Source of the DNA: a virus
Length of the DNA: 64,000 nucleotides
Reading direction: 5' to 3' (one strand)
Virus record (IMG/VR): IMGVR_UViG_3300031952_000001
Span: 147,983 to 211,982 of that record
The position numbers and the translations under genes are program-made. This document shows, piece by piece, positions 39,727 to 55,052 of the stretch. The notes under the pieces are model-generated. The model did not search any database. It was not told where the DNA came from and saw nothing but the letters and a program-made list of their open reading frames with translations. Each line of letters starts with the position of its first letter. The stretch's first letter is position 1.

Positions 39727-40881
39727 ATGCACCGTGCCTTCAAATTCCGACTCTTTACGAACTCCAATCAAGAGCGCGAACTCGGCGTCATGCTCGAAAC
39801 GCACCGCCGACTCTACAACCTCTGTTTGGAGCAACGGCGTGACCTCTACCGCCAGCACGGACATTCCGTCCGGTACATCGACCAGTCTGCGGAGTTCAAA
39901 GACCTGCGCAGCGACAACGCCTACTTCGCGCGGATCAACTTCTCTTCGGCTCAGGCCACGATGCGCCGTCTCGACAAGTCGTTCGTCGCGTTTTTCCGTC
40001 GCGTGAAGGCCGGACAGACGCCCGGCTATCCGCGTTTCAAGGCCAGCGACCGTTTCGACAGCATCGAGTTCCCGAACTACGGCGACGGCATCCGCCTGAA
40101 CGGCAATCGGCTTCGAGTTCAGCACGTTGGTGTGATTCGCTGTAAGGTTCACCGTCCCGTCGAGGGTGCAGTCAAGACGGCCACGCTCAAGCGCGAGGGT
40201 GGCAAGTGGTTCGTGATTCTGTCCTGCGATCTCGGAGACATTTGGGTTGAGCCGAGCACTCTTCCCGCCGTTGGCATCGACGTGGGTCTCGAAAACTTCC
40301 TCACCACTTCTGACGGTGAGGTCGTCGAGAACCCACGCTTCCTCAAGAAGGAACTCCCCGCCCTGCGCCGTGCTCAGCGTGCCGTCTCTCGCAAGAAGAA
40401 GGGTGGAGCGAATCGACGAAAGGCCGTCAAGGGCGTTCGTGTTATTCATGCGCACGTCGCCAACCAGCGGCGCGAGCATCATCATAAAACTGCTCTGAAC
40501 TTGATCCGTTGCTACGGCTTGATCGCGGTGGAGAGCCTGAACATTCTCGGAATGGTCAGGAACCACCGGCTCAGCCAAGCAATCGCGGACGCCGCATGGG
40601 GCGGCTTCCTGACGGTCCTGGGACACAAGGCTGAAAGAGCCGGTGTCACTGTGATGGCTGTAAATGCGTGGGGCACAAGCCAGGAGTGCAGCGGTTGCGG
40701 CGAAGACGTACACAAGGAGCTTCGTGTGCGTCAACACGTCTGCCCGCACTGTGGCCTGTCCCTGCACCGAGATGAGAACGCGGCCAGGAACATCCTGACT
40801 CGCGCTCTCCAGGCCCGGATGGGGCCTGTGGGCGTCAACGGGGAGAGCCCCGTTGCCCAAGAAGCCGTCTGCTTTAGCTGA
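39727..40881 (+). CDS. tnpB: TnpB (IS200/IS605-family OrfB), RNA-guided nuclease
   Basis: RuvC residues appear intact: D185 in GIDVGLENF, E269 in GLIAVESLNILG, D349 in LHRDENAARN. The zinc finger is CSGCG (321-325) with CPHCG (339-343). The N-terminal HRAFKFRLFTNSNQERELG is the family-typical wedge start, and 384 aa is normal length. There is no tnpA transposase nearby. TnpB cleaves DNA guided by an omega-RNA normally transcribed from the end of its own gene. It lies between terL and the next virion gene and may act as a homing-type element. Confidence 0.9.
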   Translation: MHRAFKFRLFTNSNQERELGVMLETHRRLYNLCLEQRRDLYRQHGHSVRYIDQSAEFKDLRSDNAYFARINFSSAQATMRRLDKSFVAFFRRVKAGQTPGYPRFKASDRFDSIEFPNYGDGIRLNGNRLRVQHVGVIRCKVHRPVEGAVKTATLKREGGKWFVILSCDLGDIWVEPSTLPAVGIDVGLENFLTTSDGEVVENPRFLKKELPALRRAQRAVSRKKKGGANRRKAVKGVRVIHAHVANQRREHHHKTALNLIRCYGLIAVESLNILGMVRNHRLSQAIADAAWGGFLTVLGHKAERAGVTVMAVNAWGTSQECSGCGEDVHKELRVRQHVCPHCGLSLHRDENAARNILTRALQARMGPVGVNGESPVAQEAVCFS

Positions 40882-47120: not shown

Positions 47121-49694
47121 ATGTCTAACGAGTTCGTCGTAAAGAACGGTCTTCATATCCCAGCGGGTCTTCTTGCCACCCCTTCGTTCGCGTTTGCCTC
47201 TGATACCGATACCGGCATCTACCTCTCCGGAGTGAACACCTTCGCTCTGGTTTCTGGGTCGGCTTCGCGAATATCCGTGGGGGATGCTGTAGGGGTTACG
47301 CCACGAACCAATAACAACTTCACGGTGACCACTGCGGGGTCCGGTCAGATCACGCTGACATCTGCGGACGCATTTAATATCTCGGGTGCTGCTGCCAGCT
47401 CGATCTACACGACCAACGCCAACCTGATGATCTACTCCGGTACAGGTGTTCTGGGCATTAGCTCTGATGCCACGACGACGACCGTTAATCTTGCTACCGG
47501 TGCCGGAGCGAAGGGCCTCACGCTGGGGAGCACGAACACGACTTCCCGCACTACGGTTCAGAGTGGTACCAACGGTACGTTCGTCACGAGCACTGGGGCC
47601 TTCACTGTGACAGGGGCAGCTGCCAGCTCCATCTATACGACCAACGTGGATCTGGATATTTACGCAGGTACGGGTAGGCTGTACTTGGGGGCCGATGCCG
47701 CTGCCAACCTCATCAGTCTGGGTACGGGTGCCGCTGTCAAAACTGTCATCGTCGGGAGTGTCAACACCACTTCGATCACCACCGTACAGAGTGGAACTGC
47801 GGGCACCAACATCACGAGCACCGGCTTCTTCTCCATCTCCAGCTCAGGCGCTGCCGACTGCAACATCTACACGTCGGCCAACGCGAAGATCAACATGTAC
47901 ACGGGTACAGGCACGATCAGCATCAGCGCGGATGTCGCGGCTACGACGGTCGCCATTGCTACGGGTGCTGCTGTCAAAACTGTCACCGTCGGGAGTGTCA
48001 ACACCACTTCGATCACCACCGTACAGAGTGGAACTGCGGGCACCAACATCACGAGCACCGGCTTCTTCTCCATCTCCAGCTCAGGCGCTGCCGACTGCAA
48101 CATTTACACGTCGGCCAACGCGAAGATCAACATGTACACGGGTACAGGCACGATCAGCATCAGCGCGGATGCCGCGGCTACGACGGTCGCCATTGCTACG
48201 GGAGCGGGGGTGAAGAGTACCACGGTCGGCAGCACGAATACGACCTCATCGCTCACCCTTCAAGGTGGTGGCGGTGCTGCCGGCACAGGTATCACCGTCA
48301 CGTCCACCGGGAACATCAGCATCACGACGAGCACTTACTTAGGTGTGTCGGCCAGGGTTGCCATGACGACCGACGTGGGGGGCTGGATCAAGAACAACAA
48401 CACCTACTTTGTCCCAGCAGGAGGTACGGCCCTCCAGACGTTGCTCACGGCCATCATCGCGACGACAGAGACTCCGGGGACCATCGTCCTGGGGTACGGC
48501 ACCCACACGATCAGCTGGACTGCTGCGACGACCGTAAACCAAGAAGTCACTATCATCGGTAGTGGGGCTACGATCAATTTCTCCAGCACCGATGCGGACT
48601 GCTGCCTCATTTTCTCCTCCAAGTGCATCCTCAGTAATATCAATTTCACCGGGCCGAACCCCGGCTGGCTCGCTCCCCAGATGGTGCGTGTGCAAGGGGA
48701 CTTCTCTGAGATCGTAGGTTGTAACTTCAACGGGGGTCCTGTTGGTGCCGGCACCTCCTACCTTCTCTACGTGGATGCTGCAAACGTCCTAGTGGATCAG
48801 TGCCAGCTTACTACTGCTGCCGTTGCAGCCGCCGCCGTGGTGGATTACAGTTTGTACTTCTCGGCGAACTCCCTTAGGAGCAAGGTGACTAGGAGCCGCT
48901 TCACTTGCGGTTTCTGCCAGACAGGATCCATTCTTCTGGCGGCGTCGACTACGGAAGTCATTATAGATTCTTGCAGCTTCTTGTGTGCGAACGTTCTAGG
49001 TCTCGCTCGGATCACATTTGAGGCGGGGACGTCTAGCTGTATAGTTTCAAAATGTAATTGGAACATAACAGCGGCGTCTGCTGGTCGAGTCTTCACATTC
49101 ACGTCTTCGGACACTGGAGGCTATCATTTAATCACACATAACAACATCTGGGAAGCCGCCTCTGCCCTTACCAACAGGGCCTCTGTGGTCTATGTGGCCC
49201 AACAGAATTGTCGGTTCGACTCCAACATCATCACAACTTTCAATAGGATCCATGGGGGCCTCCCCGATACCAATCTGGATCGCGCTGCCATCTACATTCT
49301 TGCGCACCACTGTTCGATTGTCGGAAACCTGTTCGACCTGGGAGGATCCGCCCAGGAGGCCATCGTAGTTCTGAAAACTGGAAACGTTGCAGCGGGTGCT
49401 GCGATGCTAGGCGTTTTCATCAGCAACAACTACTTCTATAACATCGACGGGATTACCGCTGGTGGGGGGTATGGAGTCTGGGTGAACTCGACCGCTGCCT
49501 TCCGTCCGGTGAACGGTATGGTGGACACCAACAAGTTCCATGCCAGTGGTAACGTCAGCAACTGTATAGGAACGGCTGCTGCCAACGGTGCGTTAAACTG
49601 GACGGCCGTAGGGAACGGCCGGAGTATCATAGGGGCTTTCACGGTGGGGGACTGGATCTCCGGTGGCGCTCAGATGATCGCGAGCAACCAGTAA
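47121..49694 (+). CDS. large tail fibre/spike with beta-repeat shaft and beta-helix, 857 aa
   Basis: The N-terminus SFAFASDTDTGIYLSGVNTF is the phage-fibre box with consensus D-x-DTGIY. Residues about 50-390 are shaft repeats (SAGTANITSTG-type turns, SISSSGAADCNIYTSANAKI), including a near-perfect 79-residue duplication. From about residue 430 a beta-helix begins (LQTLLTAIIATTETPGTIVL) with coils such as CILSNINFTGPN, likely a receptor-binding or depolymerase domain. Last gene before the early-type promoter at 49701. Confidence 0.78.
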   Translation: MSNEFVVKNGLHIPAGLLATPSFAFASDTDTGIYLSGVNTFALVSGSASRISVGDAVGVTPRTNNNFTVTTAGSGQITLTSADAFNISGAAASSIYTTNANLMIYSGTGVLGISSDATTTTVNLATGAGAKGLTLGSTNTTSRTTVQSGTNGTFVTSTGAFTVTGAAASSIYTTNVDLDIYAGTGRLYLGADAAANLISLGTGAAVKTVIVGSVNTTSITTVQSGTAGTNITSTGFFSISSSGAADCNIYTSANAKINMYTGTGTISISADVAATTVAIATGAAVKTVTVGSVNTTSITTVQSGTAGTNITSTGFFSISSSGAADCNIYTSANAKINMYTGTGTISISADAAATTVAIATGAGVKSTTVGSTNTTSSLTLQGGGGAAGTGITVTSTGNISITTSTYLGVSARVAMTTDVGGWIKNNNTYFVPAGGTALQTLLTAIIATTETPGTIVLGYGTHTISWTAATTVNQEVTIIGSGATINFSSTDADCCLIFSSKCILSNINFTGPNPGWLAPQMVRVQGDFSEIVGCNFNGGPVGAGTSYLLYVDAANVLVDQCQLTTAAVAAAAVVDYSLYFSANSLRSKVTRSRFTCGFCQTGSILLAASTTEVIIDSCSFLCANVLGLARITFEAGTSSCIVSKCNWNITAASAGRVFTFTSSDTGGYHLITHNNIWEAASALTNRASVVYVAQQNCRFDSNIITTFNRIHGGLPDTNLDRAAIYILAHHCSIVGNLFDLGGSAQEAIVVLKTGNVAAGAAMLGVFISNNYFYNIDGITAGGGYGVWVNSTAAFRPVNGMVDTNKFHASGNVSNCIGTAAANGALNWTAVGNGRSIIGAFTVGDWISGGAQMIASNQ
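47735..48208 (+). repeat. 237-bp tandem duplication within the spike gene
   Basis: Units start at 47735 and 47972 and differ by only a few bases by eye (for example GTCATC/GTCACC and GATGTC/GATGCC). Confidence 0.85.
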
Positions 49695-50377: not shown

Positions 50378-50770
50378 ATGAACGAGCAGAACACCCCCGA
50401 GACCGAATCCCCGCGGGAGGACAACGTGACCACCCTTCCGGTTCCGCCGGCAGCCCCCGCACCGGCAGCTCAGGAGCTGCCCACTGTGGGGTCTCCGAAG
50501 CGCTCCCATGTGAAGCTGAACCGGGCCCAGCGCGCCGAGGTGCGCTTGGCTTTCATGACCATCACGGAGGCGGAGACGCGGTTCAAGGCCGCGACGGAAG
50601 CCGCCAACGTGGCTCGAAGCTCGACGATGTCGGCCAGGTCCCAGGCTCTGGAGGCTCAGGCCAAGATTCTCCAGGAGCTGGACCTGTCCGACGACAACAT
50701 CGTCGATGTGGAGAACCTCGTGGTTCTGCCTCCGAAGGGTGAGTCGTTCGTGAAAGGCAGGAATGAGTAG
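50378..50770 (+). CDS. hypothetical head-operon protein, 130 aa
   Basis: Pro/Ala-rich start (LPVPPAAPAPAAQELP), then a helix (FKAATEAANVARSSTMSARS). Overlaps the portal gene by 8 bp. No family recognised. Confidence 0.6.
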   Translation: MNEQNTPETESPREDNVTTLPVPPAAPAPAAQELPTVGSPKRSHVKLNRAQRAEVRLAFMTITEAETRFKAATEAANVARSSTMSARSQALEAQAKILQELDLSDDNIVDVENLVVLPPKGESFVKGRNE

Positions 50771-53700
50771 CTTCATCCCGAACCGCCAGTCGTCCGTGTT
50801 CAAGCCGAGGATCATCTCCTCGGATTCCTCTTCCATGAGGCAGGAGATCGCGTCGAGCGTTCTCCCCAAGGGTGCCTCACTGGCGGTTCCGTCCTCGTTC
50901 CACCAGAGGACTGCTTCCGGCTTCTTCGGAGGCAACATGCCGATGGGGGTCTCCCCCTTCGGCTCGGGCGGCGGTGGCGGCAGCTCCATGTACCATATGC
51001 AGCGGCCCTACATGCCCGGGGTGGAGTCCCCCGACCGAGTCCAGTACCCAAGAACCCGAGAGGAAGCCAACCGGGCTTGGCGACTGTTCCATGAGACCGA
51101 CCCGATCTTCGGTACAGCCATGGACATGTACGCCGAGATGCTCGTCTCCGATTTCGACGTCATCGTCGGCGACGACAAGTCCTCCGAGATTCGGAACACC
51201 TTGGAGTACATGTGCCAGACGACCAACCTGATGGACAGACTCCGCTATATCATCCGCGAGTACCTGGTGCTCGGAGAGGCGATCCCTCACTGCTGGACGC
51301 CTGAGCAGAGCGTTCTGACTCCTGATGGGTTCAAGAGGATCGATACCGTCGCTGAGGGTGATCTGGTGCTCACCCATGAGCGTCGATTCCGACCTGTCAC
51401 GGAGGTGCACGTCAGGGAATATTCTGGCGATGTCTTGAATTTCGGCATTGAAGGGATCTCTGCGCTTCCGTGCAGGTGTACTCCGGAGCACCCTCTCTAC
51501 GTGTGGACTGAAGACGGTCCGGTTTGGAAGCGTGCGAAGGACGTGACCATTCTGGACCACATCGCAGTGGGGGTCGATAAGGACGTCGAAGACATCGAAG
51601 ATTTTGACGTCTCTGATGTCGTTCCCGAGTATTTTGATTTGTTGGCCGAGAACGACAAGCACAATGAGCATACGGGGCGGGAGCCCATTCCGGACATCGT
51701 CAAGGTCGACGAAGACTTCATGCGGCTGGTCGGGTACTACTACTCGGAGGGCAACGCCTTCGTGACCAGCCGGAAGGGCCGGCTGACTTTCTCTTTCCAC
51801 ATAGACGAGGCCCCCTATCACGAAGATGTGGCTCGGATCGTCAAGGCCAAGTTCGGAGTGGAGTGTCGCTTTGACATGAAGCCCGACACCCACACCTGCC
51901 AGATACATATTGATTCCAAGATCATTGCGAGCTTTTTCCTCAACCTATTTGGGACGGGTTGCAGGGACAAGCTAGTCCCTTCCTGGCTTCGGAAGTTGCC
52001 TATCCACAAGCAGAAGAGCTTTCTGATAGGGCTCTTCCGCGGGGACGGAAACATCTACTACAGCAAGGTGAGTAAGTTCACGACCGCTCAGGTGCAGCTG
52101 GCTCATGAAGGTGTTACCCATCTAGCTTGGCAGATGCTCTTGCGGATGGACGTTGCCGCGTCCTTCAACATCTTCAGCAGAGCCCGGTATGGCAGTTACT
52201 GGAAGTGCTCTTTCAATGCCGGCGTGTACTCTGCCCTCGCGGAAGAGATCTTTGAAGAGTATGTCGAGCCTGCTCTCATAGTCAGGAAGCATGCGCAGAT
52301 CCGTCACGACACTCTCTTCTATCGAGTTCGTTCCATCGAGCGTGAAGAGTACGAAGGCTCTGTGTACAACCTCGAAGTGGAGGAAGACCACAGCTACGTT
52401 GTGGGCGGCATCGTTAGCCACAACTGCTTCTTCGACGACAGCCTGGGGATCTGGACCTACATCGCGATGCACAACCCGGACTTCATCGAGGTCCTGGATT
52501 CCCCCATCGTGAACATGGACCCGATCATCAGCTTCATCCCCGACGAGTCCCTCAGGTCGATGATGTCCGCAGGTACGCCAGAGGCTCGCGAGTTCCGTGC
52601 GCGATTGCCGCCGGATTTCGTCTCCAGGATCCTCGCTCGACAGAAGATTCGCCTGTCGCCGCTGAACTGTACGTTCATTCCGCGAAAGCTCCATCCGTAC
52701 CAGACGCGCGGGACTTCGTTGGCGAGCAGAATGTGGCGAATCTTCATGGTCGAGGATGCGGTATATAATTCCACAATTGCGACATTCAGGAGACATGCGT
52801 CACCTGTTAAAGTGTTGAAACTTGGGGATCCTGCGACGGGCTGGATACCTGCGCCAGGTGCGGAAACTAAGCTACTTGAGATGCTTAACCGAGCTGAGGT
52901 GGATCCACACAGCTGGTTGATTTATCATTATGGGATTAACTTTGAGCAGTGGGGCACGACGGACAAGAGTGTCACAATTGGCAAAGAGCATGATGTGATA
53001 GAACGTGTGAAACTTTTGGCACTTGGGTTGTCCAAGAGTTTTATGACAGGCGAGGTCACGTACGCCTCATCGTTATACGATTCTTTCGTTAGATCTTCGG
53101 ATGATTCGACTGTTTTTCTTGGTGAGGTGCTAGTTGGAGATCTCGTTAAGGATCGGTTCGGTGACACCCAGAAAGTCACCAATGTTCTGAAGTACCCTTC
53201 GCCAGACAAGATGGTGAAGATCTCGGTGTACGGCAACCGCAGCTTGACGCTCACCGACAACCACTTCCTTCCCGTCTTCATGCGCCCGAGGACTTGTCTG
53301 TGTGGCTGTGGTACGCTGCTCGGTGATGAGCGCTACGTCGCCCAGGGCCACATGTTCTGGCGGTCGTTCGTTCCTGGTCACCACAAGCTCAGCGAACGTG
53401 GGGGCCGGGACCGGGTCTGGAAAGAGTACAAGCACGACGACAAGGTGATCGTCCGGTTCCCCGAGAAGCATGACCCTCACCAGAAGCTCATGGCTGCCGA
53501 GGTCATCAAGGGTGACTGGCTGATGATCCCTCGGAAGTTCGAGGTGTCCGACACGCCGGCCACGGAAGAGAACCTCAAGAAGGCTCGGTTGCTCGGATAC
53601 TACGTTGCCGAAGGCAGCGTGCGGGATGGGGCGACTCCTGGTGCCAACCCGAGCGCCACCTTTTCTTTTGGCAACGAAGAGAAGGAGCTGCTTTACGCGG

Positions 53701-55052
53701 AGGATGTAAAGTCTTGTGCAGCTTCTTTGGGTTTTGATGTCACTGTGCGCAAAGAAGCCGATCTTTGTTACACTGCTTACGTTCCTACTTCTTCTCGATC
53801 TCTCACGGACTGGTTGGATGTGAGCGCCCATCGTTACAGCCAGACGAAGTATCTTTCTTCCGAGGTCATGCACTGGAACCTGGATCTGAAGAAGGAACTC
53901 ATCAAGGGCATGTTCCGCGGAGATGGGTACATCTTCAAGGGGGGGAACGGCAAGACGACCAAGAACCGACTCGACATCGTGTACGTCACGACGTCTCAGC
54001 AACTCTCTTTCCAGGTGGAGTTGATCCTTGCTCAACTGGGGTACGCCAGCTCAGTGCATCAGAGCGAAGAGCGCGTGGACAAGAAGGGCTATGTACATAA
54101 GCCCTGCTGGAATATTTCCATTTTCGGAAAGCAGGCCATGCCTCTTGCCCAGTTCGTGTGGGGTGAGGTTCCGGCCGTGTGGGATCAGTTCAATTTCGAC
54201 GACTTCGATAAGGGCTCCCAGGGAGAGCGCTTCGAGTGCTTCAAGGACGATGACTTCCTGTACCTGCCGGTGACGAAGGTTGAGATCGTCGAGGTCGACA
54301 AGGAGAGGGATCCCTTCGTCTACAGCCTCACGGTCGAGAACACCGAGAGCTACACGCTGGACAACATCGCCTCTTACAACTCGGCCAAATCCGGTCTACA
54401 GGTCTTCCTTCGCCGTCTACTGTCTCTCCGACAGCTCCTGGAGAACCTCTGGATCTACCCGAAGTTCTTCCGACCGATTTCCGAGATCAACGACTGGACG
54501 ACGGCTTCCAAGAGCGAGGTGAACCACAACTACCGCGTCAAGCGGACCGCTCAGGAGATCCAAGAGCGGAACATGGTCATGGTTCCCACGTTGAAGTGGA
54601 AGAACAAGCTCGATCCGACCGTCGACACCGACGTGCTCGCGGCGTACCAGATCCTGGAGAAGTTCGGGATCAAGCTGTCGAAGGCGACCGTGTCTTCCGC
54701 GGTGGGAATCGACTGGGAGGACGAGCTGGAGAAGTCGCTCAAGGAGTTCAAGACCGAGAAGGAGAAGAAGGAGCAGACTCTCGGTCAGACGGAGTTGGCT
54801 CTGTACGAGGCCGAGCACGGGAAGGCCAGCCAGACGCCCGGTGGAGCCCCTCCGGGTGCTCCCGGCGGGCCTGGAGCGGGGGCGAAGCCTCCAGCGGCTA
54901 CTGGGAAGCCTCCGGGCGCGATGGGCGCTCCTGGCGCACCTCCAGGCGGTATGAACGATGCCTCGAATCCGCCAGGTAGCGCCGAGCCTGCGGTTCCGGG
55001 CGCTCTTGGCGGAGGGATCGAGGGTCCTGGCGGCGGTGGGTTGCCGGGATGA
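50763..55052 (+). CDS. portal protein interrupted by two inteins (1429 aa precursor)
   Basis: Dodecameric ring at the capsid vertex through which DNA passes. Exteins are residues 1-176, 555-768 and 1207-1429, giving about 613 aa after splicing, a usual portal size. Portal features include RAWRLFHETDPIFGTAMDMY, the Gly-rich N-terminus, VEDAVYNSTIATFRRHASPV, the stem-like GLQVFLRRLLSLRQLLENLW and a Pro/Gly-rich C-terminus. Both inteins sit inside conserved portal segments, typical intein targets. Coupled by ATGA to the next head gene. An AT-rich exon tract lies just left of intein 2. Confidence 0.88.
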   Translation: MSSFIPNRQSSVFKPRIISSDSSSMRQEIASSVLPKGASLAVPSSFHQRTASGFFGGNMPMGVSPFGSGGGGGSSMYHMQRPYMPGVESPDRVQYPRTREEANRAWRLFHETDPIFGTAMDMYAEMLVSDFDVIVGDDKSSEIRNTLEYMCQTTNLMDRLRYIIREYLVLGEAIPHCWTPEQSVLTPDGFKRIDTVAEGDLVLTHERRFRPVTEVHVREYSGDVLNFGIEGISALPCRCTPEHPLYVWTEDGPVWKRAKDVTILDHIAVGVDKDVEDIEDFDVSDVVPEYFDLLAENDKHNEHTGREPIPDIVKVDEDFMRLVGYYYSEGNAFVTSRKGRLTFSFHIDEAPYHEDVARIVKAKFGVECRFDMKPDTHTCQIHIDSKIIASFFLNLFGTGCRDKLVPSWLRKLPIHKQKSFLIGLFRGDGNIYYSKVSKFTTAQVQLAHEGVTHLAWQMLLRMDVAASFNIFSRARYGSYWKCSFNAGVYSALAEEIFEEYVEPALIVRKHAQIRHDTLFYRVRSIEREEYEGSVYNLEVEEDHSYVVGGIVSHNCFFDDSLGIWTYIAMHNPDFIEVLDSPIVNMDPIISFIPDESLRSMMSAGTPEAREFRARLPPDFVSRILARQKIRLSPLNCTFIPRKLHPYQTRGTSLASRMWRIFMVEDAVYNSTIATFRRHASPVKVLKLGDPATGWIPAPGAETKLLEMLNRAEVDPHSWLIYHYGINFEQWGTTDKSVTIGKEHDVIERVKLLALGLSKSFMTGEVTYASSLYDSFVRSSDDSTVFLGEVLVGDLVKDRFGDTQKVTNVLKYPSPDKMVKISVYGNRSLTLTDNHFLPVFMRPRTCLCGCGTLLGDERYVAQGHMFWRSFVPGHHKLSERGGRDRVWKEYKHDDKVIVRFPEKHDPHQKLMAAEVIKGDWLMIPRKFEVSDTPATEENLKKARLLGYYVAEGSVRDGATPGANPSATFSFGNEEKELLYAEDVKSCAASLGFDVTVRKEADLCYTAYVPTSSRSLTDWLDVSAHRYSQTKYLSSEVMHWNLDLKKELIKGMFRGDGYIFKGGNGKTTKNRLDIVYVTTSQQLSFQVELILAQLGYASSVHQSEERVDKKGYVHKPCWNISIFGKQAMPLAQFVWGEVPAVWDQFNFDDFDKGSQGERFECFKDDDFLYLPVTKVEIVEVDKERDPFVYSLTVENTESYTLDNIASYNSAKSGLQVFLRRLLSLRQLLENLWIYPKFFRPISEINDWTTASKSEVNHNYRVKRTAQEIQERNMVMVPTLKWKNKLDPTVDTDVLAAYQILEKFGIKLSKATVSSAVGIDWEDELEKSLKEFKTEKEKKEQTLGQTELALYEAEHGKASQTPGGAPPGAPGGPGAGAKPPAATGKPPGAMGAPGAPPGGMNDASNPPGSAEPAVPGALGGGIEGPGGGGLPG
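51291..52424 (+). mobile_element. intein 1 of the portal (378 aa) with LAGLIDADG endonuclease
   Basis: Begins Cys (CWTPEQSVLTPDG) and ends VSHN followed by Cys+1, the canonical class 1 arrangement. Hint blocks include GDLVLTHERRFRPVTEV, the block-B-like TPEHPLYVW and VYNLEVEEDHSYVVGG. The endonuclease motifs are LVGYYYSEGN and LIGLFRGDGN, with acidic residues retained. Confidence 0.88.
53067..54380 (+). mobile_element. intein 2 of the portal (438 aa), Ser1 type, with LAGLIDADG endonuclease
   Basis: Starts at the first Ser of SSLYDSFV, which aligns with the usual C-x3-D-[ST]-h-V block. It ends ASYN before Ser+1, so the penultimate His is Tyr. Block B is TLTDNHFLPVF; the endonuclease motifs are LLGYYVAEGS and LIKGMFRGDGY. 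The nucleophiles would be Ser/Ser rather than Cys/Cys. Confidence 0.82.

Follow-up and report, generated by a model that had tools for sequence, protein, structure and literature searches.

Two predicted inteins in a phage portal gene, one with a stripped serine-initiated active site

A large environmental phage, virus record IMGVR_UViG_3300031952_000001 of 211,982 bases, has in its final 64,000 nucleotides (hereafter the window) a single 1429-aa open reading frame (ORF) without internal stop, in which portal sequence alternates with two intein-like segments, and the locus raises the question of how a portal subunit could be obtained from such a precursor when the second segment has an unusual set of splice residues. 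In a PHROG comparison the ORF matches phrog_16240 (E 5.8e-63) in three stretches, and between these lie Pfam matches to Intein_splicing (3.7e-18) and, in two stretches, LAGLIDADG_3 (2.1e-17). All three profiles score far above chance, which bears out an earlier sequence-only reading in which a portal is split here by two LAGLIDADG inteins. Upstream is the terminase large subunit, and downstream are a head maturation protease and the major head protein (PHROG), the gene order expected of a portal. The portal assignment also has a predicted fold behind it, as a model of an uninterrupted relative (L004; pLDDT 66.8 and pTM 0.54, low to middling values) finds its best matches in the portals of phages lambda, T4 and G20C. 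A search by sequence for solved portal relatives returned none that was convincing, no portal relative was found in bacterial and archaeal genomes, and across the window's virus the Intein_splicing and LAGLIDADG_3 profiles matched the portal ORF only. Elsewhere in the window, a TnpB-family RNA-guided nuclease (39727–40881, + strand; NF040570, E 4e-83) adjoins the terminase gene, and an 857-aa protein with near-identical internal repeats and no Pfam or PHROG match (47121–49694, + strand) is possibly a tail fibre. The parts of the ORF are as follows.

50763–55052, + strand: portal precursor ORF, 1429 aa (613 aa without both inteins)
50763–51290, + strand: N-extein, aa 1–176, ending GEAIPH
51291–52424, + strand: intein 1 (site a), aa 177–554, 378 aa, from C1 to SHN
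52425–53066, + strand: middle extein, 214 aa, starting with the native Cys+1 and ending GEVTYA
53067–54380, + strand: intein 2 (site b), aa 769–1206, 438 aa, from S1 to SYN
53067–53069, + strand: Ser1 of intein 2, codon TCA
53193–53195, + strand: Tyr43 of intein 2, aligned (by eye) with the NX-motif His of Ser1 inteins
53262–53264, + strand: His66 of intein 2, in block B (TxxH); neither splicing segment, N- or C-terminal, has another His
54324–54326, + strand: Ser420 of intein 2, block F position 4 (commonly Asp)
54345–54347, + strand: Glu427 of intein 2, where most portal inteins have the block F His (DHSY)
54375–54380, + strand: Tyr437-Asn438, with which intein 2 ends
54381–55052, + strand: C-extein, 223 aa plus stop, starting with the native Ser+1 (SAKSGL)

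The boundaries follow from relatives that lack the insertions. Uninterrupted IMG/VR portals read EAIPHCF or EAIPHNF at site a and GEVTYASAKSGL or GEQTFASAKSGL at site b (for example L004, L005 and L026), and excision of the in-frame inserts at both junction pairs restores exactly the sequence of these relatives, the Cys+1 of site a and the Ser+1 of site b being residues native to the portal. The three exteins sum to 613 aa (176 + 214 + 223), in agreement with the size of about 613 aa that had been put forward for the spliced portal. Because the uninterrupted portals and the Cys1-initiated inteins at site b (L002, GEVTYA/CSL; L006, GEVTYA/CSV; slashes mark junctions) fix the boundary, Ser1 of intein 2 is the leading Ser of an SS pair (aa 769, nt 53067), to which the Cys1 of these relatives aligns. 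The second Ser was also considered as Ser1 and was rejected, as it leaves one surplus residue relative to all uninterrupted relatives.

Both inteins carry the two LAGLIDADG helices with their acidic residues kept (LVGYYYSEG and IGLFRGDG in intein 1, LLGYYVAEG and KGMFRGDG in intein 2). Intein 1 is otherwise canonical, as its Cys1, HN and Cys+1 had already indicated: it reads C1, TPEH in block B, DHSY in block F and SHN/C at its end, with the penultimate His kept, and its Cys1, terminal Asn, Cys+1 and block B TxxH are those of class 1. Its nearest annotated relative is the portal intein of Eggerthella phage LE2-3 (29%), with which it pairs as sister, on long branches, in a tree of 21 inteins. 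Against annotated phages it matched 30 records at identities of at most 35%, and a viral scan with intein 1 alone returned no close relatives outside portals. Site a (EAIPH/CFFDD) is occupied in the window only, among the portals collected.

Intein 2 also has the residues of class 1 (S1, terminal Asn, S+1 and TxxH, here TDNH), and it lacks the penultimate His that is usual, though not obligatory, in that class. Its block F reads ESY and its end SYN/S. The Ser1, Ser+1 and penultimate Tyr noted previously all hold once the boundary is fixed by relatives; this was half of the oddity, the block F Glu and the Ser at block F position 4 (F:4) having gone unremarked. The Ser1 and Ser+1 are those of cysteine-less inteins, which combine Ser1 with Ser or Thr at +1, and H66 is the only His among the N-terminal 75 and C-terminal 50 residues. 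A HINT fold is indicated by Pfam and NCBIfam matches and, for intein 2, by its predicted structure: the AlphaFold2 model (pLDDT 89.6, pTM 0.90) finds in Foldseek, as best matches, inteins with LAGLIDADG endonucleases (TliVMA, 7qsu, E 9.1e-21, and PI-SceI). In a sequence comparison with annotated phages, intein 2 matched 7 records, all weakly and over part of its length, and a viral scan with intein 2 alone returned no close relatives outside portals. Between block B and the endonuclease (window 53295–53384) is a CxCGCG...H stretch (CLCGCG...H), common to most portal inteins of the group, that looks like a metal-binding insert.

A further departure is seen at the NX motif, whose His is preceded by Arg or Lys. 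Aligned by eye, this register holds Lys42-Tyr43 in intein 2, Val-Tyr in the site-b intein of another phage (L070_b, described below) and Arg-His in PI-PkoII (2cw7), and in all three, again by eye, 30 residues without a gap separate a conserved Val from the TxxH His. PI-PkoII resembles intein 2 in having Glu at the place of the block F His (VYDLSVEDNENF), and its penultimate residue we take to be His. Its Arg-His is probably the NX motif, going by the motif description in PMC10189870. Tyr occupies the NX register in the Cys1 site-b inteins L002, L006 and L063 as well, and is therefore not restricted to Ser1 members. What is unusual in intein 2, as read from its residues, is the combination: Ser1 and Ser+1 together with Tyr at the penultimate position, Glu for the block F His and Tyr for the NX His.

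The portal gene itself is frequently invaded. Among 56 distinct portal ORFs from 87 IMG/VR loci (50 clusters at 95% identity), at least one intein is present in 18 (15 clusters) and two or three in 8 (6 clusters); these counts are lower bounds, because contig ends truncate several of the ORFs, and the search patterns, taken from the middle extein, may have missed some of the copies that inteins split. A portal with two inteins had been thought uncommon, and this does not hold for the group. The portal ORFs of L063 (from 2458) and L079 (from 4129; 1996 codons stop to stop) have three each. At least eight sites are used, namely PEFE/SPDRQ, EAIPH/CFFDD, YED/SIYNAS, EDAVF/SATIA, VFNA/TIQTA, DPQ/SWLIY, GISK/SFLHGE and GEVTYA/SAKSGL, where the last, site b, and the insert of L024 there, one residue apart, are taken as one; LE2-3 adds another, and the mycobacteriophage portals of Tyke and ET08 two more. 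The portals of the window, L004 and L002 are 77–79% identical in the middle extein and differ in which inteins they carry, a pattern consistent with homing-driven gain and loss. In the tree, the window's site-b intein clusters with other site-b inteins, L022_b excepted. Judged from sequence, this phage group has an intein hot spot in its portal gene. One intein-free portal ORF (L016, from 5192) has a long C-terminal extension at residues about 670–1212.

The family also shows which features of intein 2 are its own. Complete sequences were read for 22 portal inteins, a count that omits the one of L011, whose end is missing. Of these, 13 have Tyr as penultimate residue, 4 have Phe, 2 have His (intein 1 of the window and LE2-3), and one each has Arg, Cys or Leu. 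With penultimate His absent from 20 of the 22, its loss, previously counted among the peculiarities of intein 2, is the family norm, and it is the combination of residues that stands as unusual. Position 1 is Ser in the window's site-b intein, L070_b, L079_d1 and L082_d1, and Cys in the remaining portal inteins. Block F retains its His (HSY or HTY) except in a core site-b group, which reads ESY in the window and L070_b, SSY in L002 and L006 and NSY in L063. Across 20 aligned portal inteins, a set to which L070_b and LE2-3 do not belong, T63 and H66 of block B, P155, V418, Y429 and N438 are invariant. The site-b inteins have fewer protein-changing than silent differences (pN/pS of 0.15/0.72 for L002 against L006 and 0.33/0.74 for the window against L006), a comparison that is crude, synonymous sites being near saturation, and that points to selection against protein change.

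Three side observations concern other inteins of these phages. L079 (6331–7428) and L082 (5809–6945) carry a second, separate group of Ser1/Ser+1 portal inteins (YED/SIYNA) that keeps the block F His. A consensus-like portal intein, that of L079 site e, has matches in 6 annotated phage records. In LE2-3, an intein-like stretch (MW679026.1, 45222–48335; LE23_71) is 25% identical over its full length to a portal intein, and its tRNA synthetase label looks doubtful.

Two site-b inteins are without an endonuclease. L063_b, at 210 aa, keeps an intact splicing module (C1, NSY, SYN/S). L070_b (L070, 6646–7050) is 135 aa long, with Ser1, TDNH, ESY and SYN/S, no Cys and one His; it thus carries, at the same site in a different phage, the residue set of intein 2. 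That this set is shared argues that the stripped active site works and would be hard to explain without splicing, because an endonuclease-less insert in an essential gene should persist only if it is spliced or harmless. We tentatively propose, as a plausible idea that falls short of probable, that the site-b portal inteins are a natural lineage reduced to one catalytic His, with Tyr or Phe at the penultimate position and the block F His gone, in which two divergent phages have come to Ser1 and block F Glu with no NX His, and that L070_b has a near-minimal splicing active site.

Comparison with known systems, drawn from excerpts of the papers cited here by PMC number, places both the portal and the residues. 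The portal inteins of cluster C1 mycobacteriophages (Bixzunavirus; PMC5050341) are in a homologous large-phage portal and do not always keep the penultimate His (Tyke, ASKN/C); those of Tyke and ET08, however, are inserted near HW/CRLFYA and KFS/TLNL, one per portal, and begin with Cys1. The portal of LE2-3 (MW679026, LE23_67) likewise has a LAGLIDADG intein, but a single one, at MRA/CLEVYA and with a canonical SHN/C. Two inteins in one essential packaging gene are described for the TerL of the Mic1 cyanophage (PMC7156551) and of a crAss-like phage (PMC7886860), although these are in terminases rather than portals and of other intein types. In the open-licence literature we found no account of a portal that carries two inteins, or three, and none of Tyr as the residue usually found at the penultimate position, and the excerpts of PMC7765530, PMC12363816 and PMC3556154 hold nothing on doubled portal inteins.

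Phage inteins without the penultimate His, and phage portal inteins, have thus been described, and those in the excerpted text have Gly, Lys or Ser in its place and are all Cys-initiated (PMC5050341). Splicing without this His has precedent (PMC5050341, PMC7664689), as does a general tolerance of active-site changes (PMC7664689, PMC4031507). The Ser1/Ser+1 inteins are a recognised subgroup of 58 inteins in 16 alleles (PMC10189870); PolB16 OarG, Psp Pol-1 and PI-PkoII/TkoII, like intein 2, have Ser1, Ser+1, terminal Asn and TxxH, but differ from it in keeping the NX His, which is Tyr in intein 2. According to the same excerpts, the NX His is highly conserved among the 58, where Tyr or Asn replaces it in two exceptions, and the inteins that were tested with Ala in its place hardly spliced any more.

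Taken together, the reading that fits best, and that we consider likely, is a portal precursor with two class 1 inteins, independent of each other and mobile, of which intein 2 is a stripped oxyester variant. Both inteins would have to leave the precursor to yield the 613-aa subunit of the portal ring, and virion assembly would then depend on both splicing events, as had been proposed and as we infer here. Intein 1 would take the ordinary thioester route, using Cys1, TxxH, the block F His, the penultimate His, Asn and the native Cys+1. Intein 2 would take an oxyester route through Ser1, the native Ser+1 and the terminal Asn, with the block B His alone remaining; this His may activate the first junction, and Asn cyclisation may be mainly fold-driven, with Tyr437 and Glu427 assisting at most. 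Both inteins probably home into empty portal genes, because their two-motif endonucleases keep the acidic residues. Against this reading, the nearest relatives of intein 2 are Cys1 inteins, while C1S inactivated several inteins of that kind (PMC10189870, in excerpt), and intein 2 has Tyr where Ser1 inteins normally keep the NX His. A Tyr-to-His change, suggested earlier as a splicing test for intein 2, may mislead, because replacing the penultimate Gly of a phage intein by His impaired its splicing (PMC5050341).

Intein 2 might instead be slow or conditional, loss of the helper His residues having tuned it so that portal maturation awaits a cue and splicing serves as a timer of head assembly. 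The penultimate residue did set the splicing rate of a mycobacteriophage intein (PMC5050341), paired inteins occur in the packaging genes of other phages and are proposed as sensors for Mic1 TerL (PMC7156551), and retention of the stripped set in the endonuclease-less L070_b could point to a benefit beyond mobility. However, the non-His residue sped up that mycobacteriophage intein rather than slowing it (PMC5050341), and the close relatives L004, L005 and L026 are intein-free at site b, so no general need for a timer is visible; we regard this as unlikely. Poor ligation would be expected of a Ser1 intein without the NX, penultimate and block F His, and intein 2 could therefore have ceased to ligate and merely cleave one or both junctions, the portal being built of pieces. 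Portal rings generally need intact subunits, though, and the intact Ser+1 and Asn, the selection on the protein, a splice product identical to the empty site and the persistence of the residue set in L070_b make this very improbable. We give still less credence to initiation by a class 2- or class 3-like route that bypasses Ser1: the active site is unorthodox and has Ser at F:4, but class 3 requires an F:4 Cys within a WCT triplet and no position-1 nucleophile (PMC4031507, PMC5050341), class 2 likewise has none and uses Cys+1 (PMC4031507), whereas each of the 23 inteins read begins with Ser or Cys and the +1 residue of intein 2 is Ser, so that class 2 or 3 chemistry was set aside. That intein 2 is in fact a Cys1 intein, with a Ser codon introduced by sequencing or assembly, as its three nearest site-b relatives (L002, L006, L063) and the single record of the window's virus might suggest, has a negligible chance, since TCA is two base changes from the TGT or TGC of the relatives and could not arise by a single base error, and since the independent Ser1 intein L070_b uses AGC in an ORF identical in four loci (L070, L071, L072 and L083).

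With the precursor read as losing both inteins by splicing, the points of interest become the portal as a hot spot and a stripped Ser1 site that a minimal natural intein has in common with intein 2. If intein 2 and the L070 mini-intein do splice, few helper residues would suffice and the NX His would be dispensable for Ser1 chemistry; L070_b, short and free of cysteine, would be of the type wanted in protein labelling and is a candidate for tool development. For annotation, the portal size of such phages should be taken after splicing. The phage group offers a dense natural series, in which one host protein has at least eight sites and from zero to three inteins, with Cys1 and Ser1 and maxi and mini forms, and which lets intein gain, endonuclease loss and active-site drift be traced in an essential virion gene.
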